This document shows positions 6,095 through 40,827 of a stretch of DNA of 64,000 bases, in pieces. This DNA comes from Siphonodentalium dalli (lineage: Eukaryota; Mollusca; Scaphopoda; Gadilida; Siphonodentaliidae), in assembly GCA_032622095.1 (NCBI GenBank), contig CP136063.1, positions 11,697,814-11,761,813 on the forward strand. Reading direction: 5' to 3'. Positions within the stretch are counted from its first letter, which is position 1, and the number at the start of each line of letters is the position of its first letter. The notes under the pieces were generated by a model. That model was not told the origin of the DNA. It made no database searches and saw only the letters and a list, made by a program, of their open reading frames with translations. A program made the translations under genes and the position numbers.

Positions 6095-6543
6095 GATAGT
6101 GGATAATACCAACATGTGTGGTACTATATCAATATTTAGAACCAAATTCTTCTCGGTACCCGTTGGTCTGGTACTAACAGACATATTGGCACTACCTTAG
6201 TACCTATATGGCTTGTTATTTCTAAGTGCGCAAGCCGTGGCTAATGTTGCAAATTGTATTTGAAGGAACGAAGGATGAAATTTTCATGTCACATATTGTT
6301 CTGCGTCTAACGAAACTATAGACTATAATTACTTACAAAATAGTCGAAATTCCAATTTGAAGACAATGTTCACCATGTCATTAACATTTTTATTTGCATT
6401 TAAGCTGTTTCGAGCCGGTATAAGGAGGAACAACAGTTCAATAGCACACGCGGCCTTAACAAAATTGTGTTTGTTATTCTTTTGTACAAATGCACCAAAT
6501 TATAGAGAGATATATGTTAGATGCAGTCTTTTGCGAGTATTGA
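6095..6543. other. left flank of the large palindrome
   Basis: Variants of GGTACCNNTGG-type words recur (6097-6190). An open frame that runs from 6357 into the palindrome arm has no recognisable domain. The sequence up to 6543 has no counterpart at the right end of the palindrome, so this is the flank. Confidence 0.45.
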
Positions 6544-6888
6544 TTGATGATACCGACCCTGTTTGGTGTCATTTCAGGAACGATAACTCTATCCGACCTA
6601 CATTCTCTGCAGTACTACCGTCGGAGTTTGACCTATATTCTCCGCCCACGCGTCGGTCTATTTGTATCGGTTGGACATGTCCGGACATGACCCGCTGGTT
6701 ATATCCAGATTTCTCCATATGAATGGTATATTATCTACATGTATATCACGTGATGATCTCGGTGGGGTAGCTTCAGTCTTGAATATTAAAGGGATACTAG
6801 GCTCTCACTGGGGATGATTATTAAAGTGACACTCACTATGGATGAATGTTAAAGTAACACATGGCGCACACTGTGGGATAATGTTAAA

Positions 6889-7100
6889 GTGACACTCGCA
6901 TTGAAAACTTCCAAAAAGTTCAAAAAGGTCAAAAAGTTCAAAAAGTTCAAAAAGTTCAAAAAGTTCAAAAAGTTCAAAAAGTTCAAAAAGTTCAAAAACT
7001 TACAAAATTTCAAAAATTTCGAAAAACTTCAAAAACTTCAAAAACTTCACAAATTTCACAAATTTCACAAATTTCAAAAAACTTCAAAAATTAAACAAAA
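6889..7100. repeat. TTCAAAAAG tandem repeat (mirrored at about 11576-11790)
   Basis: Nine-base units TTCAAAAAG repeat about nine times and decay into ACTTCAAAAAC-like units. Just upstream, TTAAAGTGACACTC-like units repeat three or four times at roughly 40-bp spacing (6788-6898). The long open frame through this repeat, rich in Lys-Phe-Lys, is a by-product of the 9-bp period and is not called as a gene. The right arm carries one or two more units. Confidence 0.85.
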
Positions 7101-7212
7101 TTCAGGATTTAGTCATAAATGTGACCCGCTATATCAAATCCAGTCGGAAGTCGGGATTTTTTTTATCCTGTGCCAATGCATTCTCTTATCTATGCGAGTC
7201 GACCAGCCGCCC

Positions 7213-7253
<41 letters not shown>

Positions 7254-7349
7254 TGTAATGCGCATGTCAACGCCGCGCCGCCGGCGGCGGCGGCAACTAC
7301 ATAATCCTATGGCATGCAAAGAAATTGGCGGCGGCGGTTAAGGATTTAG

Positions 7350-7380
7350 TCAGTGATGATACTGTTGTTGTTGTTGTTGG

Positions 7381-7414
<34 letters not shown>

Positions 7415-7736
7415 GGTGGTGATGTTGTTGTTGTTGTTGGTGTTGTTGTTGTTGTTGGTGTTGTTGTTGTTGTGGCTGATGATACTGTTGTTGTTGTTGG
7501 TGTTGTTGTTGTTGGTGTTGTTGTTGTTGTTGTTGTTGTTGTGGCTGATGATACTGTTGTTGTTGTTTGTGTTGTTGTTGTTGTTGTTGTTGGTGTTGTT
7601 GTTGTTGTTGTGGCTGATGATACTGTTGTTGTTGTTGTTGTTGTTGTTCTGAAGGCGTGTGTTTAACTTTGATATGACGCTTCAAACTATCTTGCCAAGC
7701 ATAGACACTTAAGCACTCTTCACATTGATACTTCAT
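7350..7736 (-). CDS. single C2H2 finger plus poly-glutamine protein (left arm)
   Basis: A 128-residue protein. Residues 1-26 form one classical C2H2 finger (C-x2-C-x12-H-x4-H, starting YQCEEC and ending HIKVKH). The rest, from about residue 33, is almost all Gln with interspersed His and a repeated QYHQPQQQQ motif, encoded by CAA runs. A lone finger with a low-complexity tail suggests a nucleic-acid-binding factor whose tail mediates protein contacts, but that is inference. The start ATG lies 45 bp downstream of a TATA-like TATATAAATA (complement at 7781-7790). It differs from its right-arm twin by Arg/Cys in the finger helix and by glutamine number. The CAA run itself could be read in any frame, but the finger lies in this one. 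Confidence 0.7.
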
Positions 7737-7780
7737 TTTCCTATATAATCAGTGAAATCGAGCGTTCTTCTATGCACCTA

Positions 7781-7790
7781 TATTTATATA
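7781..7790 (-). promoter_or_regulatory. TATA-like box, left finger/poly-Q gene
   Basis: On the minus strand the sequence reads TATATAAATA, about 45 bp upstream of the start codon at 7736. It is mirrored exactly at 10872-10881. Confidence 0.5.
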
Positions 7791-8412
7791 GAACAGAAAC
7801 AAGGGAAACGTGGTGGACTAGTTAACTAGTTCAGGCTGTCGTTCACAACGTCTCTTAGTGTTGTTTGTACTGGATACAAATTTATCACATTGGCTACAAT
7901 ACAACCTACCTATTCAAATGTCAATGCAATTATGAGTGAATTCAAAATGAGAGTATATATATAAGCATTTGTATCGACATCTCGTGAATCTATCGAAATA
8001 TCTTACTTCTCTTTCCAAATTGCGTAATAATTATGTTGAGGTTCAGTGGGTACGTCCTATATATCCAGCTGAAGGCAGAATGGACAATTGCTTCCTCTGA
8101 TGTACAGTTAGTTTGAATCAGTAAACATATGCACATGATTGTGTCTGTGCAACTTGAAACAATACAATTAAAATCTGGTCGTTTTCGGCGGCGGCCGTAA
8201 TGCGCATGTCAACGCCGCGCCACCGGCGGCGGAGGCGGCGGCGGCGGCGGTGGCGGCGGCGGTTAAGGATTTAGTCACAAATATGGCTTGTTTCCATTCA
8301 TCGGAAAACTATGGGGGTAAGGTGGTGAGCGCCACCGAAAAAAGCAAGTGAGCGAGGGAAAAAAGAGAAAAATAACATGACAAGTGGTACATAGTACAAT
8401 TTATTATATTAA

Positions 8413-8478
8413 CTATTCACTGTCACTTTCGTCCGAATTGTCATCACTTTCGTCAGATGTGTCATTTGTTTCGTCCAT
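8413..8478 (-). CDS. 21-codon acidic Ser/Asp/Glu-rich ORF (left arm)
   Basis: A short open frame beginning MDETND and ending ESDSE, downstream of the Bcl-2-like gene and beyond a TA microsatellite. On the plus-oriented copy the frame stays open upstream through the TA run (LKYRPLLEKF precedes the Met), in a different frame from the Bcl-2-like gene. It could be an independent micro-ORF or an acidic tail joined by splicing. Coding status is not established. Confidence 0.3.
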   Translation of the reverse strand: MDETNDTSDESDDNSDESDSE

Positions 8479-8503
8479 GAACTTTTCTAGCAATGGTCTG
8501 TAC

Positions 8504-8506
<3 letters not shown>

Positions 8507-8540
<34 letters not shown>
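8507..8540. repeat. TA microsatellite, left arm
   Basis: About 17 TA units between the Bcl-2-like gene and the acidic ORF. The mirrored tract in the right arm is longer. Confidence 0.9.
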
Positions 8541-8548
<8 letters not shown>

Positions 8549-8555
8549 ATTGATA

Positions 8556-9167
8556 TTAATATGTTTGCCAATAATTTACACATCCATGAATCGATCTGAA
8601 AACATTATGGTTCATTGTCAACATTTTTGACGAGTAGTTGTCAATATTTAGACATTCCTGGAAGAAATTATCCCAACTGCCTTCCCGTTCGACCCATTGG
8701 TCAGTGTATAATGTCACGATAGTGTGTGCCCATTGCACAATTTCGCTGACCAATGAGAAGTCGTTGTCTTTGTATGCTTTTAAACACATTTTTCCTGTGA
8801 ACAGGAATGCAGCCATTATTCTCTCCCATGTGTAGGGGCCATCTTCCCGAAATATATTGTCCAACAAGTCACTAAATATATAGGGAAAATGATCCCTATC
8901 GTAATTGTCCAATTTCCCTGTCAGCTCATTTAACAGCCACATGTTATAATTTTCCAGCTGTTGAAGTATTCTTCTTGTGCAGTCACGTATTTCATCTAAC
9001 TCTGATAAATAAAAGTTATTAGTGTCTGGGTAATGAAAGCCGTTTCTCAGAATGATATGCCTGACATAACTTTTCATCAAATATTTCGTAACTGCGCCAA
9101 CTTCCATACTGTTCAATTTCTTGAGCTGTGTATCCATTATTATTTTTTTCCCTTCTACGTCAGACAT
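8556..9167 (-). CDS. Bcl-2-family protein (left arm copy)
   Basis: A 203-residue all-helical protein with the family's two signature motifs. A BH1 match lies at about residues 108-127 (NIFREDGPYTWERIMAAFLF, compare the family pattern ELFRDGxxWGRIxAFFxF). A BH2 match lies at about 157-170 (QWVEREGSWDNFFQ, compare W-I-x-x-x-G-G-W-D-x-F). The 45 residues between them align with the helix-5/helix-6 core (TGKMCLKAYKDND). An N-terminal helix (VTKYLMKSYVRHIILRNG) sits where BH4 is expected. A weak BH3 candidate lies around LDEIRDCTRRILQQLENY but lacks the usual Gly-Asp pair. There is no hydrophobic C-terminal anchor. Family members control outer-membrane permeabilisation in apoptosis; retained BH1/BH2 with weak BH3 favours an anti-apoptotic type, by inference. 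It is intronless and duplicated in the other arm, where Arg near residue 61 is Cys. Confidence 0.75.
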   Translation of the reverse strand: MSDVEGKKIIMDTQLKKLNSMEVGAVTKYLMKSYVRHIILRNGFHYPDTNNFYLSELDEIRDCTRRILQQLENYNMWLLNELTGKLDNYDRDHFPYIFSDLLDNIFREDGPYTWERIMAAFLFTGKMCLKAYKDNDFSLVSEIVQWAHTIVTLYTDQWVEREGSWDNFFQECLNIDNYSSKMLTMNHNVFRSIHGCVNYWQTY

Positions 9168-9486
9168 AAAATATCAACAGTCCCTTTATTATGTTGAGTC
9201 AGCTAACCAATCAAAATGCATGATATTAACGTGTTCCGACATGTTTCATTTCTAATTTTAGATGTTAAATGTGCCGACATTGTTCTTTGTTGTTGTAAAA
9301 AAATTGGCGCGGCGGCAGTGAGGGGGTGATGGGGGCCGCACGCGCGCCAATTTTTTTACAACAACAAAGAACAATGTCGGCACATTTAACATCTAAAATT
9401 AGAAATGAAACATGTCGGAACACGTTAATATCATGCATTTTGATTGGTTAGCTGACTCAACATAATAAAGGGACTGTTGATATTTT
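9168..9486. promoter_or_regulatory. shared divergent promoter region between the Bcl-2-like twins
   Basis: The two 203-codon genes start at 9167 (minus) and 9487 (plus) and read outward. Each 140-bp side holds an inverted CCAAT (ATTGGTTAG), an ATAATAAAGGG element about 20-30 bp before the start and GGCGCG near the centre. Because the sides are reverse complements, any promoter present is symmetrical. Function is inferred from position only. Confidence 0.4.
9311..9343. other. 33-bp asymmetric centre of the palindrome
   Basis: The only part of the inverted repeat without a complement. It is G-rich (GGCGGCAGTGAGGGGGTGAT then GGGGGCCGCACG). It would be the loop of a cruciform, or the junction if the palindrome arose by template switching. 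It is not the standard single-molecule sequencing adapter as far as I can tell. Confidence 0.7.
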
Positions 9487-10098
9487 ATGTCTGACGTAGA
9501 AGGGAAAAAAATAATAATGGATACACAGCTCAAGAAATTGAACAGTATGGAAGTTGGCGCAGTTACGAAATATTTGATGAAAAGTTATGTCAGGCATATC
9601 ATTCTGAGAAACGGCTTTCATTACCCAGACACTAATAACTTTTATTTATCAGAGTTAGATGAAATATGTGACTGCACAAGAAGAATACTTCAACAGCTGG
9701 AAAATTATAACATGTGGCTGTTAAATGAGCTGACAGGGAAATTGGACAATTACGATAGGGATCATTTTCCCTATATATTTAGTGACTTGTTGGACAATAT
9801 ATTTCGGGAAGATGGCCCCTACACATGGGAGAGAATAATGGCTGCATTCCTGTTCACAGGAAAAATGTGTTTAAAAGCATACAAAGACAACGACTTCTCA
9901 TTGGTCAGCGAAATTGTGCAATGGGCACACACTATCGTGACATTATACACTGACCAATGGGTCGAACGGGAAGGCAGTTGGGATAATTTCTTCCAGGAAT
10001 GTCTAAATATTGACAACTACTCGTCAAAAATGTTGACAATGAACCATAATGTTTTCAGATCGATTCATGGATGTGTAAATTATTGGCAAACATATTAA
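9487..10098 (+). CDS. Bcl-2-family protein (right arm copy)
   Basis: Twin of the left-arm protein: 203 residues with the same BH1 (FREDGPYTWERIMAAF) and BH2 (WVEREGSWDNFF) motifs and no membrane tail. The only residue difference I see is Cys for Arg near residue 61 (DEICDCTRR). The start Met follows an AATAAAGGG-containing leader shared with the left copy. The C-terminal 30 residues after BH2 (ending CVNYWQTY) are polar, unlike the membrane anchor of cellular Bcl-2 proteins; soluble relatives occur among viral Bcl-2 homologues. After the stop come a long TA microsatellite, an acidic micro-ORF and an AATAAA-like word (ATAATAAATTG, about 10252-10262). Two nearly identical intact copies suggest recent duplication, gene conversion or an artefact. 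Confidence 0.75.
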   Translation: MSDVEGKKIIMDTQLKKLNSMEVGAVTKYLMKSYVRHIILRNGFHYPDTNNFYLSELDEICDCTRRILQQLENYNMWLLNELTGKLDNYDRDHFPYIFSDLLDNIFREDGPYTWERIMAAFLFTGKMCLKAYKDNDFSLVSEIVQWAHTIVTLYTDQWVEREGSWDNFFQECLNIDNYSSKMLTMNHNVFRSIHGCVNYWQTY

Positions 10099-10105
10099 TA
10101 TCAAT

Positions 10106-10113
<8 letters not shown>

Positions 10114-10154
<41 letters not shown>
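10114..10154. repeat. TA microsatellite, right arm
   Basis: About 20 TA units preceded by GTGTGTG. It is longer than its left-arm mirror, one of the clearest length differences between arms. Confidence 0.9.
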
Positions 10155-10158
<4 letters not shown>

Positions 10159-10183
10159 GTACAGACCATTGCTAGAAAAGTTC

Positions 10184-10249
10184 ATGGACGAAACAAATGA
10201 CACATCTGACGAAAGTGATGACAATTCGGACGAAAGTGACAGTGAATAG
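10184..10249 (+). CDS. 21-codon acidic ORF (right arm)
   Basis: Mirror of 8413-8478. The frame begins MDETND and ends with TAG, followed by an AATAAA-like word a few bases on. The frame is also open upstream back to about 10079 through the TA run. Coding status is uncertain. Confidence 0.3.
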   Translation: MDETNDTSDESDDNSDESDSE

Positions 10250-10871
10250 TTAATATAATAAATTGTACTATGTACCACTTGTCATGTTATTTTTCTCTTT
10301 TTTCCCTCGCTCACTTGCTTTTTTCGGTGGCGCTCACCACCTTACCCCCATAGTTTTCCGATGAATGGAAACAAGCCATATTTGTGACTAAATCCTTAAC
10401 CGCCGCCGCCACCGCCGCCGCCGCCGCCTCCGCCGCCGGTGGCGCGGCGTTGACATGCGCATTACGGCCGCCGCCGAAAACGACCAGATTTTAATTGTAT
10501 TGTTTCAAGTTGCACAGACACAATCATGTGCATATGTTTACTGATTCAAACTAACTGTACATCAGAGGAAGCAATTGTCCATTCTGCCTTCAGCTGGATA
10601 TATAGGACGTACCCACTGAACCTCAACATAATTATTACGCAATTTGGAAAGAGAAGTAAGATATTTCGATAGATTCACGAGATGTCGATACAAATGCTTA
10701 TATATATACTCTCATTTTGAATTCACTCATAATTGCATTGACATTTGGATAGGTAGGTTGTATTGTAGCCAATGTGATAAATTTGTATCCAGTACAAACA
10801 ACACTAAGAGACGTTGTGAACGACAGCCTGAACTAGTTAACTAGTCCACCACGTTTCCCTTGTTTCTGTTC

Positions 10872-10881
10872 TATATAAATA
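10872..10881 (+). promoter_or_regulatory. TATA-like box, right finger/poly-Q gene
   Basis: TATATAAATA lies 45 bp upstream of the ATG at 10926. It is the best TATA match near any start in the palindrome. Confidence 0.5.
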
Positions 10882-10925
10882 TAGGTGCATAGAAGAACGC
10901 TCGATTTCACTGATTATATAGGAAA

Positions 10926-11321
10926 ATGAAGTATCAATGTGAAGAGTGCTTAAGTGTCTATGCTTGGCAAGATAGTTTGAAGTGTCATATCAAAGTTAAA
11001 CACACGCCTTCAGAACAACAACAACAACAACAACAACAGTATCATCAGCCACAACAACAACAACAACACCAACAACACCAACAACAACAACAACAACAAC
11101 ACCAACAACAACAACAGTATCATCAGCCACAACAACAACAACAACAACAACACCAACAACACCAACAACAACAACAACAACACCAACAACAACAACAGTA
11201 TCATCAGCCACAACAACACCAACAACAACAACAACACCAACAACAACAACAACATCACCACCAACAACAACAACAACAACAACAACAACACCAACAACAA
11301 CAACAACAGTATCATCACTGA
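10926..11321 (+). CDS. single C2H2 finger plus poly-glutamine protein (right arm)
   Basis: A 131-residue twin of the left-arm protein: an N-terminal C2H2 finger (YQCEEC then HIKVKH) and a Gln/His tail with QYHQPQQQ repeats. In this copy a Cys replaces Arg just before the first zinc-binding His (SLKCHIKVKH). The distribution of His among the Gln runs also differs. The finger's Cys and His ligands are retained in both copies. The tail ends at a TGA that lies inside the GC-rich motif ACTAAATCCTTAACCGCC. It has its own TATA-like box and no intron. A role in controlling its neighbours is possible but not shown. Confidence 0.7.
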   Translation: MKYQCEECLSVYAWQDSLKCHIKVKHTPSEQQQQQQQQYHQPQQQQQHQQHQQQQQQQHQQQQQYHQPQQQQQQQHQQHQQQQQQHQQQQQYHQPQQHQQQQQHQQQQQHHHQQQQQQQQQHQQQQQQYHH

Positions 11322-11417
11322 CTAAATCCTTAACCGCCGCCGCCAATTTCTTTGCATGCCATAGGATTATGTAGTTGCCGCCGCCGCCGGCGGCGCGGCG
11401 TTGACATGCGCATTACA

Positions 11418-11473
<56 letters not shown>

Positions 11474-12142
11474 GGGCGGCTGGTCGACTCGCATAGATAA
11501 GAGAATGCATTGGCACAGGATAAAAAAAATCCCGACTTCCGACTGGATTTGATATAGCGGGTCACATTTATGACTAAATCCTGAATTTTGTTTAATTTTT
11601 GAAGTTTTTTGAAATTTGTGAAATTTGTGAAATTTGTGAAGTTTTTGAAGTTTTTGAAGTTTTTCGAAATTTTTGAAATTTTGTAAGTTTTTGAAATTTT
11701 TGAACTTTTTGAACTTTTTGAACTTTTTGAACTTTTTGAACTTTTTGAACTTTTTGAACTTTTTGAACTTTTTGGAAGTTTTCAATGCGAGTGTCACTTT
11801 AACATTATCCCACAGTGTGCGCCATGTGTTACTTTAACATTCATCCATAGTGAGTGTCACTTTAATAATCATCCCCAGTGAGAGCCTAGTATCCCTTTAA
11901 TATTCAAGACTGAAGCTACCCCACCGAGATCATCACGTGATATACATGTAGATAATATACCATTCATATGGAGAAATCTGGATATAACCAGCGGGTCATG
12001 TCCGGACATGTCCAACCGATACAAATAGACCGACGCGTGGGCGGAGAATATAGGTCAAACTCCGACGGTAGTACTGCAGAGAATGTAGGTCGGATAGAGT
12101 TATCGTTCCTGAAATGACACCAAACAGGGTCGGTATCATCAA

Positions 12143-13064
12143 TTGATGCCAAAATATGTTCGAATTCTCACAGAAAAGAATATTTCATTCGCACTTTCTG
12201 GTCACTCAAGCAAAGCGGAAGGCGGCGACTTCGTGTTGGAAGCCAAAAATAAAAAAAATAAAAGCTTGGCTGCCACCAGGTGTCCCGACAAAGGAAACGT
12301 GCCTGGAGGTTTGTCGCGGCATGGATGACCTGGATAAGGTATGTTATATAAACTAAGTATTTTATATTGAAGAATATTTATTTATCATTTTCCTCGGATA
12401 GTTGGTCGTCGTCCGCGACGACCCCTTCCTCTGTTACCACCACCACCCGTGTTGCGTTGCAACCACCACGTCCTTTCCCGCCATCTCCCCCTGCTGCTAC
12501 CACGACGGTATCTTTAATCAAGTGCGGGCTCTCCTGTCTTCCTGCCTGTACTGCCTCATATTATTCCCGATCTCTTGGAAATGAGAGAACATAATAACAC
12601 ACTTTATTGTAATGATAAGCATCATTTTGCGGCCATTCTGGAAGCCATCTTCCAGTAAATCGTTATATATTATTGGGCTCTAAACTTATTGTTTTTGGAA
12701 TGAGTATATGGTTACATTAGATGCAATTCGATGAATAGTTATGGGTTTACAGCGTGCACCCCCCCCCATGCACACACACATACACACACACCAGTAAATG
12801 AAAAAAAATAGAACAAAATTGTTTAATGATTTTATACATATGCACCAGCAGTCTGCAATTGATTATTCATATGGAGTAGCATTTCCTAATAACACTTTAG
12901 GCAATGCAGTGCAAATGACAATGTAGTTTAAACTGTTTTTGAGTTGAACAATATTTTCTCCTCTCATACATTTTGCACATTATATTCTCAATGTATAAAG
13001 ACATGCTGTATTTACCTGTGAGCAGTGCAGAATAAGTCTATTTGTTCTGTTTGTGGATCAGTCA
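12143..13064. other. right flank of the palindrome; possible small exons
   Basis: A plus-strand frame at 12156-12330 (AWLPPGVPTKETCLEVCRGM) ends at a good donor-like AAG/GTATGT near 12338. On the minus strand, 12590-12385 has frames rich in Gly/Arg (GGGGNRGRGRRGRRPT). Neither shows a domain I recognise. The remainder (12600-13064) has C and CA runs and nothing coding. Confidence 0.3.
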
Positions 13065-24231: not shown

Positions 24232-27200
24232 CTACAGAGTTTCGTCATCGCTCTCTTCTTCGTCACTCATACAGTTGTTATCACATAGTTCCTGGTCACA
24301 GCCGCATGCATCTGTACATAGGACACCCTCTTTCTTGCAACGGCACCGCCTTGTACTGCAATCTGACTTACACCTACAGATTGTAAGTTCGAGGACAGCA
24401 GTCGGAGCTGGTGGGAGAGACATCATCTCCGGGACAAGCTGTCCATTAGAATTGAGAACCCACCCATTCAATCGTGGTGATGGCAGCATCAGCATTGGGT
24501 AGAGGGCATGTGTCCATATATAAACTTGGTAGTTAACACATTTCAGGTGCAAATTGAATGAGTCCATTGTTGGTGGTAGTTTTTCACTCCTAGTGTTCTT
24601 TTTGCTGAACAATTCATAACGTAAATCATCAAGGGAGGTCAGTTCACGGTTCGCATAAACCAAACAAACTAGAGACACACATGTTGCCTTCACGTGGTCC
24701 TTAATGATAGTCGGGTCCTCTCCCATCTCCAAGAAGGCTGGGAACATTTCTGGGTGATCTTGCAATGTTCGGAACCATTTCAATTTCCCAATAGAACTGA
24801 ACGCGCTTGTCGAGTCGCATCCACTCAATGCATGGATAGCTGGCATAACCATAGCCGATCGACGCCGTTTGCCAACGCCAGTGAGGAAGAATAGCTCTTT
24901 TATGCCCAGTAGTACACAATACATTGGACACATTGTCAGGACGTCGGTATCTCCACTCCACAAAATGAATCTTCCTACTTGTAATTCACTTGCGGCATGT
25001 CCCAGATGTACAAACATCCTAGAATCAGCCTACTCGTGGTCGGACTCAAGATACTCTGACCAACCACATCCATCCTTTGATAAAAAACATAACCTTTTTC
25101 GAATCTGGGAATCCACCGGCAAGGAAAACTTTCCGGTCATTCGATAATAGCAAAGGTATCTTCCGGGACCAGTCATCAAATAAGAAATTGACGATATTTA
25201 TTTTGTTTTTTGGATTGGACAAATATTTCTGTCTTTGTTTTGGAAAAGGTGTAGAGTGTGACGGGTTCCTGATCTCTTGCATCCGTATATCCCCGCGTCT
25301 AGCTCTTTCGCCCGACTTTATGGAGTCTGGCTGTGTATAGCTGTCGCACACATCAGCCAGGAGGTCACATCGGAAACTGAGAACGGCATGCAACAGTTTC
25401 TCAGAAAATCCACCAAATGTAGAACAGTCGGTTGCACTTGCCATTGTCATCTGTAGGAGCATCATGAAGTCAATAATTCCCATCGTGGTTTTCAGAGAAG
25501 ATGGCAAATTATATATAGCTCTATCGCCCTCGGTGTATCCAATGAGGACACTCTTCGTTGTTTTTCTGATAGTTCCATCCAAATTGAATAGGGGGAGTGG
25601 AACAGATGCTATTTCATGTTCCAGGAGAGCTGGTAGATCGACATCTCGGCTTTGTGCAACAACAACCAGTTTTTACTGAATATCTGCCTGTCAATTTCGA
25701 CAGACTTATTAGTATCTTTTTCTTTTGCCACCAGTGGCTTGTTTAGAGTACTAAATGTTTTTAATTTGGGTGTTGATATTTTGTCAAAGAAGTCACATTG
25801 TGTTACACCATTTATGTTGGTTTCGAACCGTTTGGTCACAAACTGAGAAAGTTGTTGGTTCCCCGCAACCCGGACATCACACAACTGTGATTCGATATCA
25901 TGTGTTGCAACCCGAGATGTAGCAATGTTTACGAGTGGTGTGATATTGCTCTCCGAAGCCCCTTGTTCAATAATGAACGGGTTGACCATGCTATCAGATA
26001 CTGTTGCCACAATATGGGAGACGGCTTTTTCGTCGGCGAGCATACGATTTGCGGATGCCTCCTTGTACGAAGATTTATTCGCGTCGTGTAGCCCACTCAT
26101 TTCAAATGTCTGCAACGCAACTGAGGCCTTTAGATGCGCAGTGAGGTAGAACTTTTTCAGAGCCGCGGTGTGACAACACAAACTTCGATGTTTGCCGCAG
26201 TCCTTGTTGATGGATTGTTCAATTGCCATATCATGCCACACGCCAGAGAAAGGCTTGCAAGTGTGGTGAACAGATGTATTCTATTGGAAAACGGCGGATG
26301 CTAATTCAGGCTTCTTCTCGAACATTAGCCTCGATTCAGCTACATTGACTAATCCCCATCGCGCGTAGTTCACATGTTTACACATGAAATCAAGAGGAAG
26401 CATTTCTGCTGATGTCTCTATCTCCATCAATATATTATCACCGCGCTTAGCAGCAATATAATCAAGCAGCAGTTGTGACAAATCAGATACATAGTTGTCC
26501 CAGAACATAAATGTTTTCGACACTTTTCTGCCATGGTCTAGAAACTCGCCAAACTTTACGAACAGAGGCTCTGTACCTGACTGGAATTCAGTGACACATT
26601 TTTGTAAGCTGTGCCTGCTATCATCGTTCAGTTCGCTGAACAAGTCCATCACAGCTTCTGCCTTTGCAGCAATATTGTCCATTATGTGCGACTCAATCTG
26701 TTCTCCGTTGCAGCTAAGTCATTCCAGATATGCCTTCCACCTCAACTGTCCGAATGCTTCGTTCATCAATTTATGCAAGCGAACGCCGCGGTTATACGAT
26801 TTTCCACACATAATCCGATTGACCGTTGCGTTACCATGTACACCAGCCTCTATAACAATGTCCTCGAATCCACTTTCCTGCATAATCTTGCCTATGTCAC
26901 CCATGAAGTTCATGGCTCTGTGCATGCCTCCCAATTCAAACTCGTCGTTCTTAAATTCAGCCGGATTTCTCCATTTAATCATCTGAGCCTTGCAGTATAT
27001 CGCTTCGTCATATGTAACATACGACCAATTCTGCCCTAGAGTCCTGAACAAATTCTGAAACTGTTTCATCATGGTATAGATTGTATCGAAATCAGCTGCT
27101 GAGCCTGGAATCATCGGACAGTATCCAATGTTAGTCTTGGTCACGTTAATTCGATTGGTGACACTCGCGTGATATACAGTCCAACCAGGAACAGATGACG

Positions 27201-30200
27201 ATTTACTAAACTCTACATCAAATATCTTCGTTGGAATTGTACGCAAGAGAACATAGTTTTTGTCAGCCGACCTCAATAATGTATGTTCTGCGGAACACTG
27301 GTTAAACCAACTGATGCGCACATTTCCAATCAAATGTGCGGGGCCCGGTTGTTTCCCTACCATGTTAGGGCTCATAAGTATTGTATTCTCAGACGCGATT
27401 TCCGATTCTCTATGCTGGGCACCCATACTTGGGACGACGCCGAAGAAACCTCTTCTCGTATCCGCTGCCTGATATAATACCATATTCACGACGTCGTGGT
27501 GATAGCCACCAACCGATTCCGTTGCTCTGTTGAAATTATCTCCAGCGCCTCGTGTCACTATTCCATGTGCCATATTCGTTGGCACCGTCAGACCGTCTGT
27601 CTGGATTTTGTCGACCCATGACGTTTCGATCCTTTGAACTTCGTCATAACTGATGCCGTGTCCATGTCTGTTGAGTAGTTGAACCACGTCTTTTGATTGT
27701 GTGATCTGATGCATGGACACGCTCAGACATATGTGCTTCGGGGTACGACATAAACCCTCTAGATGATATATAAATGAGATCTTGGCACACGCTTAGAACT
27801 TGGCGATGGAGGCTACTGTCTGTCTCGCGAACACCAACTGGATCTACACTGACTACGTGTTCCATGCGTTTTGCTGCTAAAATCGTATATATAAACTGAT
27901 AGAGTTTCTGTCCCACGATCGACTCAGCTTCGTTGATAGAAATATAATCAGGGTTTAGATGTTTGACTGTGATTCCGGGTATATCAGCGACCAGCCTTCT
28001 GATGACGAGAGCAGTCATACCCATATAAAAATGTACCATGGTAAACCTAGATATCACCAAGGTTTTACCAAGGTAAATCAATATATACCTCGGTAAACCA
28101 AGTATTACCTCGGTAAACCAATATATACCTAGGTGATACCATGGTAATATGTGATTTACCTTGGTAAGTTTACCAAGATATACCGAGGTAAACCAATATA
28201 TACCTAGGTAAGTCAAGATATACCTTGGTAAGTCAAAATATACCTTGGTAAGTCAAAATATACCTCGGTAAGTCAAAATGTACCTTGGTATATCTCGGTA
28301 TATCTGGACTTACCTCGGTATATATATTAACTTACATTGGTATACCTCGGTAAGTCCGAATATACCTTGGTATATCTCGGTATATCTGGACTTACCTCGG
28401 TATATATATTAACTTACATAGGTATACCTCGGTAAGTCAAAATATACCTTGGTATATCTCAATATTTCTGGACTTACCTCGGTATATATATTAACTTACA
28501 TAGCTATATTTTACATTTGACTATATATGCTTCCACAGTATAATACCATATAACAAGGTACCGTAGGCTTACTCTATTATGAGTATTTAACACAGCATAC
28601 TACCATAGTAAACTTTCCAGTTATCACGGTCAGACTGCTGCCACAGTATTTTCCCCATATATAGTGTAGAATACCATTGTGAAATTACCACCTATACTAT
28701 GTTCTACCATGATAAAAGCAACGTCAATGTGGTCTCATGAAGTCATCTTAGTTACTGAGTTTTCACCAGAATTCTACCATGGTAATTTTCCACTTATTGT
28801 GGTCTACCATGGTAAAAGTTACTTTAATAATGTGTTTACTTTAATAATGTGTTTGTAAACAGGTAAATGTCCATGTATTGTGTGGTGAAGGTAAAATGTC
28901 TCCCTTTGTTTGTTTACCGTGGTAGGCCTAGCTATTACAGTTTCCCAATTAATAATTGTTAATATTACTCTAATTTAATCCAGAAAAAAAAGTACACGAG
29001 TTCAAAACATAAACGAAACGAACCGCGCATAAATTACTGTCCGAAATCGCCATTACGCAATCACGAAAATAAAAAAAACTGATATTTCATGAATTATATA
29101 ACTAGTTGGTTGGTTGATTATTTAATGTGTATACATTATATGATACTAATATGAACTGCTTTAAACATGTTCGTTTTTAATTGTCCGTTTCGCTAATTCT
29201 CAGTTACCGATCGACGACCTCCACTCTTCACTTCCAATGTTTTTGGCGGTATAGATTTTCATTTTGTTTTCGAAGCTAGTAACGAATCATTCTCCTCGTT
29301 ATGTCGAAGGACAAACTTAATTAAACATTATAAACGATACTTGGAGGACCCACTGAGTGAGAATATTCCAAAAAGCACAACTAGACGCTGGATGTGTGAG
29401 GCTGATCGTTTCGATTCGACTGCAAGTGGAACTTCAACTTGTGAACACACAGTGACAGTGAAACTGCCGGCCACAATTCTCAAAGTGAAAGTGTCTCAAA
29501 TACAGTGTCAAATGACTCAGACTTAATTTATTGCAACACCTAATGAAATGGAACAAGTTGAACATAATGATAATGAACAAGTTCAACTAAACATGCTAAA
29601 TGATCAACAAGAAACACAGGATTCAATGGTCCGCGGCCGTCAGTTACGCAGTCAGATATTGAATATGAGCTTCAAGTTGAAGAATATATCGACTCAGAGG
29701 AAGTATGTTTGGAGATTGGTGATAATGTGATATTTCAAGACTACGGATTTGCTAACGATGGAAATGAATCAGTCAAAATCGAACTTGAACAACTTCAAGC
29801 CAGTGACGATGAGCGGGGAATAATCGACATGAACTAGAATTAGAATATTAAACAAAAATTTCTCAATTATACTAATTTATATCATTGTGGTGAATGTCGG
29901 TTTTGGAGAACTTGGCTTTATAATATGTTAACTTTCATGTCTGTACGAACAGAGACCAACTGCGTCAATGTAAACAGAACAGCTACAGTGTGTCAGTATG
30001 CCGTAATTCGTGACCCAGTGTTGTGACCAGAGTGGACAAAGCGGACTGCTCACGGAGTTCTACTCAGCACGCAATGTGTGTGAACTGTGACGCGGTCGGC
30101 TGACCAGGAGAACAATAACATTAGAACTCGGCTATCGATCACAGTCGGATGTGGAGTTGTGGACGTATTTCTAACATCACAGTTCCATCAGGGAGACACC

Positions 30201-32118
30201 AAAAGACATTGACGGTGATATTGTTACCATCTTACATACCTTCATACAATTAAACATCTCATTATTTTAAACACATCGCTGTCACTTCGATACGTTTACC
30301 CCAAATGAATACCATTAGAACTTTGGTCCATCGCAGCTAGAAATCATTATAGGCAAAGTTCTAACATCATTGATCAATTCCCCAAAACTGGCGAGCAATA
30401 TTACATCACAGATGCTCAGTACCAGTGCTAGATATTATAGATGTGTGTATATGGGTTCAATTAAATTAAATGATCGATGTACGTATCTATCAGGGTAGAT
30501 TCCAATATTTATTTACCTATTAATTATCATGGTACTTTCAACTGACATACCCTAGTACTTATTCATTGGTAAATCGATACTCCGTCAAATTTCCTTGGTG
30601 GATTTTTACCATTCTAGATTCACATATACATGTAAACTCTGGTAATACATGTATACCTTGATATATTCAAATTTTTTACTAGGTACTCCAGAAAATACCA
30701 CGGTTAAAGAACCTGGGTAAACTGTTGAAATACCTCAGTATTTTGCCACAGTGAATATAGCGTGGTAAATTTTACTAAGGTGTTCTACCAAGGTCAAATA
30801 CCTTGGTAGAACATCTTGGTAAAATTTATCATGCTAAATTCACCGTGGTAAAAATACAGTAGTATTCCAACAATTTACCGAGGTTCTTTTACCATGGTAT
30901 TTTCACCATGGTAAAGTTTTACCGTGATTTTTTCACCTTGGTAAAATTTACCGACGTGATCAATTGACCAGGGTAAAAAACCATGGTAAAATTTACCTTG
31001 GTAAATACCTTGGTAAATTTTTACCTCGGTAAAGCACTAAAATTTACCTTAGTAAAATTTACCGACGTGATCAATTGACCGTGGTACAAATACCATGGTA
31101 AAATTTACCTTGGTAAATACCTTGGTACATTTTTATATGGGTATACAGAAGTGATTCCTCTGACAGCCACTGCGGATCTAACGACTCTGAAATACTGGAT
31201 GATAACTGTAGTTCTTTAAACATGGCCCTGGTCTTTGCTGCGGTATTGATGGCATCCTTTATATTGAGAGACTTACTGATAACGAGTTCAGGTTTTGAGC
31301 GGGATTGATCAATAAAAAAAACTTTATCTGGGTAATTCTTCTCAATTTTGTCCTTTAATTTTTGCTTAGTGTATGCCATGCCACATGCTGTGTTGTCTAT
31401 ATTCTGTAATATATACAGGAACTGCTTTAGTAGTATACGTGATACCTTCCTCTAAGTTTGGGAGAATCTCACCCATCAGATTATCCAAAGCAACATCGTG
31501 TGCGGTAATCGTGTTGCTGGAATCTGTGGTTCCACGTATATGTTTAATATATTTAATGTGGCACAATCTATGGTATCTTGCTTCAAGGGCAATCAATTTC
31601 GAAAAATCGCACCCAACACGACGCAGCATCTCCTCATCCTCTTTTTCCTTCGCACGGCGTTCCAGTGTCTCACAAAATATAAACGTGCTGACACGAACTA
31701 ACGTCTTGATTCCACAATGAGACAACTGTGTACATATAAGACATTTATTCCTGAAATCAAACGGTTCTCGTCTAACTGTTGTTGTTGTCTGATCAAAAGT
31801 AGCTGACGTTGTATGTTTTACGGCACGGAGATTTGAAGAATTTGTAAATGTGGAGAAGCAATTCTTATGCCAACTTATGTCGAGTTTTTTAATGTCAATT
31901 CCATGTTCTTCTGGAAATGTAGATAACCAAGCCGGTAAATCACACACTGCTGATGATTGGCGAACATCCAACGCAAGAGAGAAGGACTCCAAACCAGGAT
32001 CAGAAGCTTTGCGCAGGTTCTCGTCTTTCAACTTCTGGCAAATTAAACAGCGATTGAAGTTAATCGAAACCTTGCACTTTTTGGCAACACTCATTAACTT
32101 CAGAGGACTCGTCTCCAT
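24232..32118 (-). pseudogene. large XPG-nuclease-like transposon protein, broken
   Basis: About 1,590 codons remain after omitting the nested element. Near the N-terminus there are two zinc-ribbon-like segments (CLICQKLKDE with WHKNCFSTFTNSSNL, and KCLICTQLSH). The middle reads TPKHICLSVSMHQITQSKDV, then LLNRHGHGISYDEV, PFSGVWHDMAIEQSINKD and LPLFNLDGTIRKT. The C-terminal third holds WSGDTDVLTMC and HALSGCDSTSAFSSIGKLK, which look like the acidic and GCD...GIGK parts of XPG/FEN-type nucleases. The tail is a tesmin/TSO1-like Cys-rich CXC motif (CRCKSDCSTRRCRCKKEG). Damage: frame changes near 31375, 27745, 25665 and 25085 (the last in an A/T run); stop codons at 26719-26721, 26281-26283 and 25030-25032; and the insertion at 28018. 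The start ATG at 32118 precedes both zinc segments. Many near-intact segments imply recent activity. Confidence 0.75.
28020..31141. mobile_element. 3,122-bp transposon with TA duplication, inserted in the XPG-like gene
   Basis: Perfect inverted ends CCCATATAAAAATGTACCA (28020) and TGGTACATTTTTATATGGG (31141), flanked by TA on both sides. About 450 bp at each end is packed with near-palindromic 10-mers TACC(T/A)(T/C)GGTA and relatives. The unique middle (29340-29830) has two short plus-strand frames (PLSENIPKSTTRRWM and a Gln/Asn-rich one) resembling the N-terminal part of an unknown transposase or regulatory protein. No complete transposase is present, so the element is probably non-autonomous. 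Confidence 0.9.
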
Positions 32119-34704: not shown

Positions 34705-35290
34705 GTGTAATTAGCTCTTCGTGTGCTTAATTATTATAGGTGTATTGTAACTATTGTTTCGTCCTTTAATATTTCCCATACATTATGTACACATATATTA
34801 TGCTAGAAAAGTAGTACTATTGTTACTAATATTACTGGTAGTTGTTAATACCACCTCACTGTCAATATTCAAGTTTCAAAATCATAACGTTAATTGTTAT
34901 TACTATCTGTGTATATTGTACATGTACATCAAGTCATCAATTAACAAACTTAAGCAGACCCTGGTTGAATATCTACCATATATGGTAGGTTATTCGCATC
35001 TTAAAGCTGTTGATGTCATTGAGAGACATTCAATGCTATTATGCTATTTTGCATGCGCACTAGTAGACCCTCCAATAGCTTCTCATTACCACTCGGGACG
35101 GTGGGTGTTTTTCCTCAATTAATTGAATTTCTTGTTTTTCAGATAGGTTGTGTTTTATTCACGTTACTGTTTATGTACATTTTAATTATTTTACAAGTCA
35201 GTGAAGAGCTTACTGCTCATGTTTGTAGTTTAATATGCCCGACTTCATAAATAAAGCTTTTGAACTTGATTTTATGTACATATCATATTG
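34705..35290 (+). mobile_element. LINE 3' end remnant
   Basis: The 3' tail GATAGGTTGTGTTTTATTCA ... TAATATGCCCGACTTCATAA ... AAAGCTTTTGAACTT matches the tail after the reverse transcriptase remnant at 43700-43860, so this is probably the 3' untranslated part of the same LINE. The frame at 34754-35122 (VVLLLLILLVVVNTT) is hydrophobic, lacks a known domain and is damaged in the twin at 56364-56729. I do not call it a gene. Confidence 0.5.
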
Positions 35291-35344
35291 ATAAGAACGA
35301 TCCCCATATATTATTATATACACAAGCATACTTACCCTGTGTAT

Positions 35345-36014
35345 TATTATCATGTGAATACTCTTATATGTTTCATCAGGTTACCCATCCGGAAAAAAAA
35401 TTCTCACACACATCGCATTGATCCCGTTCCCCCGTGTGGGCCACCATATGTTCCGTCAGATCACCCGACTGAGCAAATGATGTCTCGCACATATCACAGT
35501 GTTACGGACGATCCCCAAAATGAATCATATTGTGTTTATTCAGGTGACTCGACCGATTATATGATTTCTCGCACACATCGCATTCATACGGGCGATCCCC
35601 CGTGTGAATCCTCGTATGTCTCGTCATGGTAACCGAATGAGTAAATAATTTGTCGCACACATCACATTGATACGGGCGGTCCCCCGTGTGGATCCTCTTA
35701 TGTCTCGTCAAGTTAATCGACCGAGTAAACGATTTCTCGCACAAATCGCATTAATACGGGCGGTCCCCCGTGTGGATCCTCTTATGTCTCGTCAGGGTAA
35801 CCGACGCAGTAAATGATTTCTCGCACACATCACACTGATACGGGCGATCACCAGTGTGGATCCTCATATGATTCACTAAGTCACTGGACCGAACAAACGA
35901 TTTATCACACACATTACATTGATAAGGGCGATCGCCAGTGTGGACCCTCTTATGTGCAGTCAGGCTACTCAACTGGGTAAATGATTTATGTACAGAAGTC
36001 AGCCCAAAAAACAC
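35345..36014 (-). pseudogene. truncated C2H2 zinc-finger gene (copy 1)
   Basis: Before the stop at 35751-35753 there are three intact fingers (FTQLSSLTAHKRVH, FVRSSDLVNHMRIH, FTASVTLTRHKRIH), joined by TGDRPY linkers. After it come further fingers in frame ([49 protein letters not shown]), decaying downstream. Compared with copy 2 the N-terminal region and first five fingers have been deleted. The deletion junction at about 35985-36040 holds some 50 bp of foreign sequence (TGTACAGAAGTCAGCCC), so no proper start remains. C2H2 arrays of this kind bind DNA in the nucleus, but this copy is probably not functional. Confidence 0.85.
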
Positions 36015-36177
36015 CTGTCGTATTTAATCCCAGATATTGCCCGGATGATAACCGGCGACGAAAATAGAAATGTTTCTATCCTGAAACAGGCGTAGGCGTG
36101 TTTAAACAAAAGTGGTTGTTACTAGCGGTGGGCGGAATAGAACAATGTCCTAATACATAGTTAACGAAAGTAATGGA
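36015..36177. other. leader region shared by the three finger genes
   Basis: GATGATAACCGGCGACGAAA, CTATCCTGAAACAGGCG and TACTAGCGGTGGGCGGAATA recur 5' of the finger genes at 46590-46716 and 58446-58567. It probably holds their promoter and first untranslated segment. Confidence 0.45.
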
Positions 36178-37825
36178 ATCACTGTTAGGTTTTGAAGTAA
36201 CTGACCACTTTTGAATTAGGTCTCCACTTTTGAATTAAAAAACGCCTGCTTTTGAAGTAACTCACCACATTTGTTATAAAATAGTCAGCTTTTGTAGTAA
36301 AGTGAGGTCTCCGCTTTTGAAGTAAAAAACGCCAGCTTTTGTAGTAAAAAAAACTAGGTCTCCACTTTTGTAATAACAAAATTACAGCTTTTGAAGTAAA
36401 CTGGCTCAATACATTTTACCGGGCGCTGAACGATTTTCATGACAAAGTCAACCCGATAATCCATAGTGGCTATCGCCCATACGAGTGTGACTTGTGACTG
36501 AATATATTTAGTGGGTCCAGTTCGTGACAAAAGAATCCACACCGTTAATCGACCATACGAGTGTGACGTGGTTTGGATAGCTTTCAGTCATGCCAACACA
36601 AGAGAAATCACACTGTCAATCGCCCATACGTGTGTGACGTGCACCAAAAGGCACCTAGTGAGTCCGGTTCCGTGACAAAAGAATCCACACTGGTATGTGA
36701 CGTGGTTCGAATATACTTCAGTCATACCAACACAGGAGAAATCACACAGTCGATCGCCCATACGCGTGTGACGTGTACCAAAAGGCACTTAGTGAGTCCG
36801 TTTTCCTGTCTAAGCATATGAATACACATAGGTGATCAATCATACGAGTATATAATATTGTTCCCAGTTAGCCCGACAACCCACACTATTGAATGCCCTT
36901 ACAATTGCGACCGTTGTCAGAAGAATTTCGATGCTACGTTGAGTCAGACAAGACTGAAGACGTTTTGTCAGTCCAGTAACATAACGACATATATAGTTGC
37001 TCGAAATTAGGTGATGTATTAGTTCCAACGGAAAATAGTTGGTTTATTTATTATTGGCCTCACTTTTAATTGCATATTCGTACCCTTGAAATTAGGTGAA
37101 CCGACGCGTTAGGGACAGCAGAAAATGTTTGGTTTATTAGATTCGTCTCTGGAAGGCGACATTAACAACAATTTTCAATCATTAGAATTATGTCACATAA
37201 CCGAAGTATTATAACTACGTCAAGCGTGGCCAGCTATAAAACACGGGGCCAGTAATGTGTTGTGTGGAAACCGTTGGGTTCACATACACTCTGATGATTG
37301 AGTATATAAAATAACGGATTCGATGGCATTATGTCGCTACACAGGGAAAGTTAAACTTTCAAATCTGAATGTTCTTGATGCCAAAATGTTCAGTCTCCTT
37401 TCAAAATTTATTCAACACAATATACGAATACAATTAATTATTTTATTGTCAATTGTCAGGCACAGCAATACAAAATGAAACGCATAACATAATTAAGAAT
37501 GAATGGAACGATGTTGTTGATGTAGTTAAATAATAATTAGTCAAATTTATCTTCAACCTCCCCTTAGACGCTATGGTTCTTGGATAGTTATATATACTAT
37601 GGTATATATTCATCCCTTATCGCCTCTCATCCACATCAACAATTCTGCTATCTGAATCTGTTTTGTTTATTATGGTCAACAAATGAAATCAATATTCTAT
37701 CATGAAGACAATATGTGATGGTATACATATTTACTATTGCTATGTTGCACATATCAATTGTGGTCAGACTAAGTGGTTTACTATAGTCAGGGAAGGTTGA
37801 GGTATCTCACGGACTGATAACTTAA

Positions 37826-38041
37826 AGGTGGATTATCTCTTTGTAAACATATATTATATAGTTACCGGGGTATAAAATATTAGATTTGAATCGAAGAATC
37901 CTGTCCGGAAATACTTCTATCGATTAATATTCTTTTTAATTCGAATATGTTCTGGTCTAAAATGGTGTGGTTGTTTAGCTACACGGACAATAGTGGTTAC
38001 TGTTAACAAAGACCAGAAATGTTATGGTGCAATTTTGTCAG
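37826..38041 (+). mobile_element. truncated TTAA MITE fused to the hAT element
   Basis: Starts after TTAA (37822-37825) with AGGTGGATTATCTCTTTG and runs as a normal family member to AATTTTGTCA. It then switches to the hAT end at 38042. The join shares GTCA with the hAT target site, suggesting recombination at a four-base match. Confidence 0.85.
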
Positions 38042-38944
38042 CAGAGACGTGGCTATATGGTTTCCGTTCGGGGGTGTCCACCTTGGGGAAATTCCAACTG
38101 CACCCCCTTTGAATGAGAATCAGACCGACCACAAGTTATGCATAATTCCATTTGTACCCCCCCCCCCTTGTATCGCAGTGCTCTTAGGCCTAATATCACA
38201 TATATCCATAAACCTAAACCATGGTTATATATTCCCGGTATGAGAACATTAAGATATTTTACATTTTTAACTCCATACAGAATCACACGCCTACGGGCAA
38301 GAGACCACAACACACCGGGCTTACCATGGCTGTTCGGCCCGGTGTGAGAACATTTTGAAATTTTCAACAAGAAATTCGCAAATCCTAGCATCTGGACTGG
38401 CCTCAACTGCAGCATTGTAATCTGAACAAGAAAATTGCAAAATCCTAGCATCTAGACAAGCCTCAAGCCCTCCTACAGTTGGAAATTTCCAACCTAACAC
38501 TCAACTTAGGTTGGAACATTTACAACTGATGACAATTCCAATGACAATGTTGACCAAATGTACAGTATGACAATATTGTTTTCTTAAATTAACTAGCAGT
38601 TTTTGACTGGCCATGGCGGAGGGATCAGGACACAAGCTTTCCAACTGTTGTAAATTTCCAACCTGACACCCCCCTGAGGTTGGAAAATTTCCAACTGATG
38701 ACCATGTCAGTCCAAAATTTTTACCAAAAATAAGAAAATTTGCAAATATTGGCCCAAAAACAATTAATTCCCCCCAAGAAATTGTTTGGAATTCAAACTA
38801 CAAGAATATTTTCAACATACGGTTGGTGTGAAATTTCCAACTAATGTATTGGCAGGTATGAAATTTCCAACTGTTGAAAATTTTGACCAAAGTTGGGGGG
38901 TGAGACACCCCCCCCCCCCCAAACCCCCTGTCGCCACGTCTCTG
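38042..38944. mobile_element. hAT-type element (copy 1, rearranged left flank)
   Basis: The ends CAGAGACGTGGC and GCCACGTCTCTG are perfect 12-bp inverted repeats of hAT style. The right flank ATAGTCAG (38945-38952) matches the 8-bp duplication of the twin, but the left flank is MITE sequence. About 190 bp of the middle are missing relative to the twin. The interior has repeated TTGGAAATTTCCAAC words and C-runs and no transposase, so it is non-autonomous. Confidence 0.85.
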
Positions 38945-40827
38945 ATAGTCAGGGAAGGTTGATGTGTCTTACGGGCTGATAACTTAACAAAAAACAATGA
39001 TGAACCATTTTGAGATATCACTGGTCGATCATTATTGATATCTAGATCTACAATGTAGCTCATAATTACTACACTTGTCATTTTCAACTACGTTAGTTAT
39101 AAATGCCCAGACCCTGCGCTGCTCGCAATGTGGTAACCCCTTTCCAAAAAAAAACAAAAACAAACTAAATACCAAATGCAGAACAAAATTACAATAATGA
39201 CTTTATTGATATACTGCAAACCATCGGTGCAAGCTGGGATTGATGAGCAATTATGTATAACACAAAATAGAATATATGCCAGTCCCTTCCCAATAGTATT
39301 GCCCTCGACTCACCAGCAACTTACCGTAACATACCTGCCCTATTCAGGGCAACACCAGTTACTGGCGATTGTGGCCACTGTTGACACTCCACTCGCAGAG
39401 GACTCACATTCAACAATGTAATCGCAGGCATAGCTACCACATACATGTACATATACTGTTGCCATGTTACTGGACTGACAGAACATTTTGTCACCAGCGT
39501 GGATTCTCTTATATATTGTAAGACTCACGGCAAACTTCTTCTAACAAAGGTCGGTCGCCAGTGTGGATCGTCAGATTGACGGACAGACTGGGAAGAACAT
39601 TCCATACTCGTATGATTGACCACCTATGTGTGTTCCCATATGCTTAGGCAAGGAACCGGAGTAACTAAATGCATTTCTGGTACACGTGTGTGGGCGATTG
39701 ACTGTGATTTATCTGGTGTCTGTATGATTGGAGGATATTCAAACCACGTCAAACTCGTATGGTCGATCACCTGTGTGGAATCTTTTGTCACGGAACCGGA
39801 CTCACTAAGTGCCTTTTGGCACAAGACACATGTGTATGGGGGATTGACTGTGATTTATCTTGTGTTGGTATGATTTGGGGCTAGTCAAAACACGTCACAC
39901 TCGTATGGTCGATTACCTGTGTGTATTCTTTTTGTCACAGAACCGGACTCTCTAAGTGTATTTTGGCACACGTCACACGTGTATGGACGATTGACTGTGT
40001 GATTCATCTTGTGATGGTATAACTGAAAGCTATTCAAACCACGTCACACTCGTATGGTCGATTGCCGGTGTAGATTCTTTTGTCGCGGAACCGGACTCAC
40101 TAAATGCCTTTATGTACACGTCACACGTGTATGGGCGATTGATTGTGTGATTTCTTTTGTGTTGGTATGATTGGAGGATATTCGAACCACGTCACATGCA
40201 TATGGTTGATTGCCAGTGTGGATTATTTTGTCATGGAACCGGACTCACTAAGTGCATGTTGGTACACGTCACACGCGTATGGGCGATTGACTATGTGATT
40301 TATCTTTGTGTTGGAATGACTGAAGGCTATTCGAACCACGTCACACTCGCATGGGCGATGGCCACTCTGGATTATCGAGTTGACTTTGTCACGAAAATCG
40401 TTCAGCTCCAGTCAAAATCTATTGAGTCAGTTTACTTCAAAAGCTGTGATTTTGTTATTACAAAAGTGAAGACCTAGTTTTGTTACTACAAACGCTGGCG
40501 TTTTTTTACTTCAAACGCGGAGGCCTCACTTTACTACAAAAGCTGGCGATTTGATTACAAAAGTGGTGAGTTACTTCAAAAGCTGGCGTTTTTTACTTTA
40601 AAAGTGGAGACATACTTCAAAAGTGGTAATTACTTCAAAAGCTGGCGTAACAATCACTGAAGTAAATGGTTTCCCATAGGCGACAGTGTTTTAAAAATAA
40701 ATCCCCAAGTCTACGACAGGGCTATCTCACAGACAAATTTGATCTGGAAAAACCCAGAACTACAGCAGCTAGTTAAATAAATTTCCCGCTCACAAAAATT
40801 CATCCCCCCATTCATTCACCAGTTTAA

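Follow-up and report, generated by a model that had tools for sequence, protein, structure and literature searches.

A dispersed family of palindromic insertions with twin Bcl-2 genes in Siphonodentalium dalli, probably related to Polinton/adintovirus-type elements

Results

A palindromic insertion with outward-facing genes

We analysed 64,000 nt of the genome of the scaphopod mollusc Siphonodentalium dalli (assembly GCA_032622095.1, contig CP136063.1, positions 11,697,814 to 11,761,813 of the forward strand), and this whole stretch is called the window below. An original prediction, made from the letters alone, had described a large palindrome there, with a Bcl-2-like gene, an acidic micro-ORF (open reading frame) and a C2H2/poly-Q gene on each of two arms. 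The palindrome was confirmed as real. Its two inverted arms (6543-9311 and 9343-12143) carry tandem repeats inside, and all ORFs named occur on both arms, transcribed outward from the centre as described. The GC-rich centre also stood, and it is hairpin-like, though it measures 31 nt and not 33 bp; its calculated fold is an imperfect hairpin with -28.9 kcal/mol and z = -7.6. The element proper is a single insertion of 5597 bp, bounded by a target site duplication (TSD; Table 1).

With microsatellites counted in, the arms are 97.4-97.8% identical; the five segments aligned outside the main repeats have 3 substitutions in 2,016 bases. Of the three, two fall within the Bcl-2 and C2H2 ORFs, each a change of C-to-T type at a CpG site on the right arm; the left arm has the state of the other copies described below. 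The arms have therefore evolved separately since they were formed.

The original prediction had noted no capsid, polymerase or transposase gene nearby, and none was recognised in the palindrome itself, but an element elsewhere in the genome with the same ends encodes an integrase. As to the genes by which Polinton/Maverick elements are known, a retroviral-type integrase is not among the ORFs of the window element, and of a packaging ATPase there is only the 3' end of the gene, 32 codons long, and an ORF resembling the N-terminus.

The 203-aa protein matches the Pfam family PF00452 over its cut-off (E = 3e-14), and a PDB sequence search with the right-arm protein gave Bcl-xL at E 8.2e-9 over residues 97-170, which we take to be BH1-BH2. 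These searches uphold the original call, and by its sequence the protein is a Bcl-2 family member. A structure prediction had been proposed as a further check; its best PDB matches are again Bcl-xL, but the single-sequence fold is weak (pLDDT 47, E above 0.001) and would not carry the assignment alone. A protein database search with the protein gave 25 candidates, none at E <= 0.1, and no relative was found in the IMG/VR viral contigs scanned.

A dispersed and recently mobile family

The host assembly (2.23 Gb, 9 contigs) was searched for further copies. It should be noted that the copy numbers are lower bounds, with 27 of 5,315 candidates scored in one search and 40 of 1,481 in another. Among 26 other loci retrieved, 24 are of the Bcl-2 type and two (L033 and L034) have just the outer arm in common with it, giving at least 25 Bcl-2-type loci with the window copy, on 8 of the 9 contigs. 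A search for further copies with the same flanks had been proposed as a check; the palindrome does recur, with different flanks. Both ends are present in 23 of these 25, whereas L022 lacks the right end and L029 consists of one arm and a stub.

The Bcl-2-type ends start TGATGATA, the insertions measure about 4.3-6.7 kb, and the 6-bp TSD is exact in 22 of the 23 two-ended members and matches at 5 of 6 positions in L025. A TSD of 4 bp was dismissed, as the duplication was measured to be 6 bp. The 20 tabulated target sites reveal no strong preference and no AT-specific target. The script used to find the ends sought TGATGATA-type ends, accepted a pair only if 34 or more of 40 end bases agreed, and gave preference to matching TSDs; ends found by alignment alone, without these conditions, agree with it. 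Thus the element is a dispersed, recently mobile family, inserted with 6-bp target duplications and defined ends. Single-arm differences are just 0-0.43% per copy in the aligned segments, which points to recent insertions. Among the matches listed in a search of the open-licence literature, no title or opening describes such an element.

Across copies the unmatched core at the centre is 26-32 nt long and has two main forms, and the motif GGCCGCACGCGCGCCAATTTTT at its edge occurs in 31 of 38 loci, some of the 38 repeating one place. We count 37 usable Bcl-2 frames among the 42 in 21 copies; the script called 38 intact, from which the left arm of L026 was discounted for its lost start. The five unusable frames are one in L017 (nonsense) and both in each of L026 and L027. 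The substitutions were too few for dN/dS, and many of the 44 counted stem from the misaligned L026 start.

Elements with the same ends and other cargo

The end pattern occurs at 366 forward and 370 reverse sites genome-wide (736 in all), against 0 and 0 for the control. Pairing of the first 100 of these sites (from one contig and a portion of another), with spans under 20 kb, resulted in 40 convergent pairs of 1.6 to 14.4 kb, two of which, at one nested site, have their right end in common. The two end 22-mers are identical in 35 of the 40, where 14% would be expected by chance, and 16 are 13.9-14.5 kb long.

Five types of other cargo, each read in part, were distinguished among the elements with these ends. 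Three are palindromic: a 14.35-kb element, the L033/L042 type and, at its centre, L040. The first of these (C3:54808057-54822411, TSD TAGATA) has arms with 99.7% identity across the 4.5 kb compared and a middle piece with mirrored ORFs and a centre, on both sides of which GGCCGCACGCGCGCCAATTTTT is found; it has little open frame besides a C2H2-like ORF of 102 aa that scores under the Pfam cut-off. Its ends are ~94% identical to the left terminal region of the window element over ~550 bp. The second type, L033 (6.48 kb) and L042 (6.31 kb), is palindromic where read and has a different, less GC-rich centre, hence the GGCCGCACGCGCGCCAATTTTT motif is not universal. Its cargo consists of ORFs of 199 and 119 aa without a Pfam family above cut-off; an F-box identity for the 199-aa ORF of L033 was dropped, having no Pfam support. 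L034 has the outer arm of this type.

The third type, L040, is half of an 8.28-kb element with a self-complementary centre (89.6% over 501 nt). It encodes a TBP-like protein (1.5e-14) and a retroviral-type integrase core (PF00665, 5.7e-11) with a chromodomain match under the cut-off, followed by ORFs of 135 and 275 aa for which no Pfam family was found. The fourth, L041, is half of a 6.93-kb element; its 574-aa ORF combines C2H2 fingers with a packaging ATPase of Pox_A32 type (26.5 bits against a cut-off of 22.8). The fifth, L039, is half of a 10.2-kb element with inner inverted repeats and a PC4-like ORF barely under the Pfam cut-off. Scans of IMG/VR with the ATPase protein, the 275-aa protein and the centre motif gave nothing, and a scan with the end pattern gave one match (L038), which was taken as chance. 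In L041, terminal blocks seem duplicated internally at 101-210, as if copying had switched template.

Over its first 70 nt L040 equals the Bcl-2 copy L023, and over its first 53 nt L041 equals the Bcl-2 copy L021; in five other non-Bcl-2 members the longest run in common with Bcl-2 copies is 11-24 nt. Judging from the variants common to these two pairs, ends appear to have been exchanged between cargo types.

The L041 gene also bears on two ORFs of the window. The acidic micro-ORF is identical in 31 of 32 residues to the final 32 codons of the L041 ATPase gene, which rules it out as an independent gene. The C2H2/poly-Q ORF in its right-arm form resembles the N-terminus of the same protein (39% over 87 aa, partly low-complexity), and its Pfam C2H2 match is weak (E 0.21, under cut-off). 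The Bcl-2 element is therefore partly constructed from the remains of a packaging gene.

Concerted arms and mirrored changes

In all 23 two-ended Bcl-2 members the outer ends match each other. The outermost 40 nt of both ends are identical in 20 of 20 members and the outermost 150 nt in 18 of 20, plus 3 of 3 further ones. Between copies, on the other hand, the ends are a mosaic of short alternative blocks. In the end segment s1 the mean divergence is 0.06% between the arms of one copy (16 copies) and 4.3% between copies, and in the end-segment tree 14 of 16 arm pairs are sisters. The contrast is weaker in the inner part, as in the Bcl-2 segment with 0.22% within and 0.41% between copies.

Over five segments together we found 62 single-arm differences and 66 private changes common to both arms, 39 of the latter in the end segment. 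The same nonsense mutation of the C2H2 ORF is present on both arms in three copies (L014, L023 and L025), internal duplications are mirrored in L020 and L027, and L027 has an identical one-base length change in both Bcl-2 frames. Against such mirroring, L026 has its C2H2 nonsense mutation, and L017 its Bcl-2 nonsense mutation, on a single arm. Some changes are thus present on both arms, and others, presumably later, on one, a pattern that fits a palindrome re-made before it inserts. Given the mirrored nonsense mutations and duplications, the palindrome is either re-made from one arm before insertion or homogenised.

Table 1. Features of the palindromic element, in window coordinates
Feature	Position	Strand	Remark
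Left target site duplication ATTGAT	6539..6544	.	exact 6-bp match to 12142-12147
Complete palindromic element, 5597 bp	6545..12141	.	
Left terminal region, starts TGATGATACC	6545..7100	+	common to elements of other cargo
C2H2/poly-Q ORF, left arm	7350..7736	-	resembles N-terminus of the L041 packaging-ATPase protein
Packaging-ATPase gene 3' remnant, 32 codons ("acidic micro-ORF"), left arm	8413..8511	-	mirror of right-arm remnant
Predicted Bcl-2 family protein, 203 aa, left arm	8556..9167	-	PF00452 3.3e-14
Centre, 31 nt, imperfect GC-rich hairpin	9312..9342	.	GGCCGCACGCGCGCCAATTTTT overlaps right edge
Predicted Bcl-2 family protein, 203 aa, right arm	9487..10098	+	PF00452 3.4e-14
Packaging-ATPase gene 3' remnant, 32 codons, right arm	10151..10249	+	31/32 residues as in the L041 ATPase C-terminus
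C2H2/poly-Q ORF, right arm	10926..11321	+	
Right terminal region, mirror of left	11586..12141	-	
Right target site duplication ATTGAT	12142..12147	.	pairs with left duplication

Elsewhere in the window

The ORFs and tandem-repeat arrays of 34751-40641 are matched, in the same order, by similar ones in 56361-62792 (the ORFs at 34751 and 56361 and the arrays at 39682 and 61883 are examples). This arrangement suggests a large direct duplication at a distance of about 22 kb. Long C2H2 zinc-finger ORFs with many similar fingers were seen twice, at 44760-46418 (552 aa) and 57394-58287 (297 aa). A run of minus-strand ORFs of up to 357 aa at 24232-28252, ending in a cysteine-rich CXC-like stretch, looks to us like the protein of another mobile element. 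The tandem arrays at 2120-2317, 28056-28508 and 30887-31135 have units with short palindromic pieces around GGTA/TACC.

Discussion

A probable satellite or segment of a Polinton-type element

We suggest that the window element is probably a non-autonomous, fully palindromic member of the Polinton/adintovirus-type elements, either a satellite or a segment, which would be integrated in trans and would keep its symmetry through a snap-back intermediate. We call it Polinton-type because of the integrase, the ATPase, the TSD and the ends. It has the 6-bp TSD and terminal inverted repeats of Polinton/Maverick elements and adintoviruses, and the retroviral-type integrase and packaging ATPase of the former are found on the end-sharing L040 and L041. 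Unlike a Polinton/Maverick, it is fully palindromic, carries Bcl-2 and has no recognised replication or capsid gene, and the genes are here spread over several short elements. One description gives 6-bp TSDs, an integrase and a packaging ATPase as Maverick features (PMC8097293).

An integrase like that of L040 would insert the palindrome in trans, and the replication machinery of the relatives would copy it from its TGATGA-repeat ends. The simplest candidate replicase would be a protein-primed polymerase, priming at these repeats. The displaced single strand would then snap back at the central hairpin and the second arm would be copied from, or repaired against, the first, while template switching between co-replicating elements would shuffle the end blocks. 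This would explain both the concerted arms and the recombination of ends from copy to copy. Bcl-2 itself would delay the death of the host cell during replication of the element.

Several observations weigh against this explanation. The window ends are TGATGATA, whereas vertebrate Mavericks are reported to end in AG or AGT repeats (PMC8097293). The ATPase element L041 and the PC4-like element L039 are not palindromic at the middle, so the palindrome is not the sole form. Polymerase B, a protease and a proven capsid were not found on the elements read, most of which were read in part, and the 275-aa ORF of L040 has no Pfam family, its best PDB match, at a non-significant E of 0.98, being to a protein other than a capsid. 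Three copies have a damaged Bcl-2 ORF on one arm, which is missing in L032, incomplete in L031 and interrupted in L030. The signal of concerted arms is weak in the inner part: the inner tree joins only 15 of the 21 arm pairs as sisters, and for 5 of 21 copies a different copy lies closer than the second arm does, the end segment being absent from most of these comparisons. The Bcl-2 segment has 36 single-arm and 6 shared private changes, as later mutation would give; the inner part is nearly uniform across the family, hence later single-arm mutations dominate there. Finally, gene conversion after insertion would compete with a re-making of the palindrome before it, but it is disfavoured, because identity reaches the outermost bases while many single-arm differences remain.

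Further, we speculate on a multipartite Polinton-type virus or element, a possibility that we put forward tentatively. Its genome would be divided over separately integrating segments with common ends, several of them perfect palindromes, and the segments of this tentative genome might be those with integrase and TBP, ATPase, PC4-like protein, Bcl-2 and others. The palindromic segments would replicate via the centre hairpin and exchange ends by template switching, and one segment would be dedicated to the blocking of apoptosis.

Alternative origins

The alternative that survives best, which we still find rather doubtful, holds the palindromes to be independent snap-back deletion products of a full-length, non-palindromic Polinton, with a cargo that has no role. 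It overlaps with our preferred explanation. Defective snap-back genomes are a feature of adenovirus-like replication; in such incomplete genomes the terminal region is duplicated in inverted orientation and a helper is needed. The window element resembles them in its inverted, duplicated terminal region, and both the non-palindromic middle of the ATPase element and the scraps of ATPase gene in the window fit such an origin. It differs from them in being a family of dispersed chromosomal insertions with a gene of its own. A cargo without a role does not agree with a Bcl-2 ORF that is usable in 37 of 42 arms, nor one-off breakpoints with a Bcl-2 type that recurs as a family with one repeated centre. 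Nor does any of the 40 pairs exceed 14.44 kb, among spans of up to 20 kb sought on one contig and a portion of another. The part available of PMC12090768 leaves adenovirus-like snap-back behaviour unsettled.

Less probable, and in our opinion unlikely, is a cut-and-paste fold-back transposon of the FB/TU/Galileo or Ginger2 kind that took up Bcl-2, its arms being alike through gene conversion after insertion. Fold-back elements carry long inverted repeats. FB, TU, Galileo and Tetris have long inverted arms with tandem repeats inside, as the window element has. Ginger2 has 6-bp AT-rich targets and an integrase that groups with that of Polintons (PMC2836005). Both resemblances would suit this origin. 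The arms in the window, however, meet at the 31-nt centre with no middle segment, coding cargo is present on both, and the family has a 6-bp TSD and virus-like relatives. Besides the integrase, these relatives carry genes for a packaging ATPase and a TBP-like protein, and no AT-specific target of the Ginger2 kind was seen in the 20 tabulated TSDs. A transposase of fold-back type was not seen on the elements read, most of them in part. As for the conversion, the match of the outermost 40 nt in 20 of 20 copies is found just where conversion tracts should fail, and the 62 single-arm differences in the five segments stay unconverted.

The original prediction had proposed a captured viral terminus or a cargo-carrying foldback element. 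The foldback with cargo and a viral link were both borne out, but the link is of Polinton/adintovirus type and not to the terminus, or a concatemer junction, of a large DNA virus with hairpin ends such as a poxvirus, an origin that we regard as very improbable. An imperfect, GC-rich hairpin centre with twin Bcl-2 genes in inverted repeats speaks for it, and poxviruses likewise have an imperfect hairpin telomere and Bcl-2 type proteins (PMC8956199, PMC4358236). No poxvirus gene was recognised save the A32-type packaging ATPase on a relative, and the Bcl-2 protein has no relative in the viral contigs scanned. Unlike poxviruses, the element inserts with TSDs, and these and its fixed ends indicate insertion, not random capture. 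The same ends are borne by five other cargo types, three of them palindromic where read. A single captured terminus is contradicted by a dispersed family of no fewer than 25 loci, inserted with TSDs, and with insertions of about 4.3-6.7 kb a poxvirus terminus was rejected.

Long near-perfect palindromes are a known class of assembly or library fold-back artefact, but such an origin has next to no probability here, as a one-off artefact or chance is rejected by the same kind of palindrome at 24 other loci, 22 of them two-ended with different flanks (TSD exact in 21, 5/6 in one), and by arms that bear substitutions of their own.

Implications

Polinton-type elements are described as single elements with one gene set. 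Here, in a recently active family, Polinton-type genes are found on several elements that share ends, some of them full palindromes whose arms would be copied from one another. A position close to the root of many DNA viruses has been proposed for elements of this type (see also PMC7805220). The family makes hairpin-based replication of an integrating element testable from genome comparison alone, and the presence of Bcl-2 as chief cargo in a mobile element hints at an action of such satellites on the death of the host cell.

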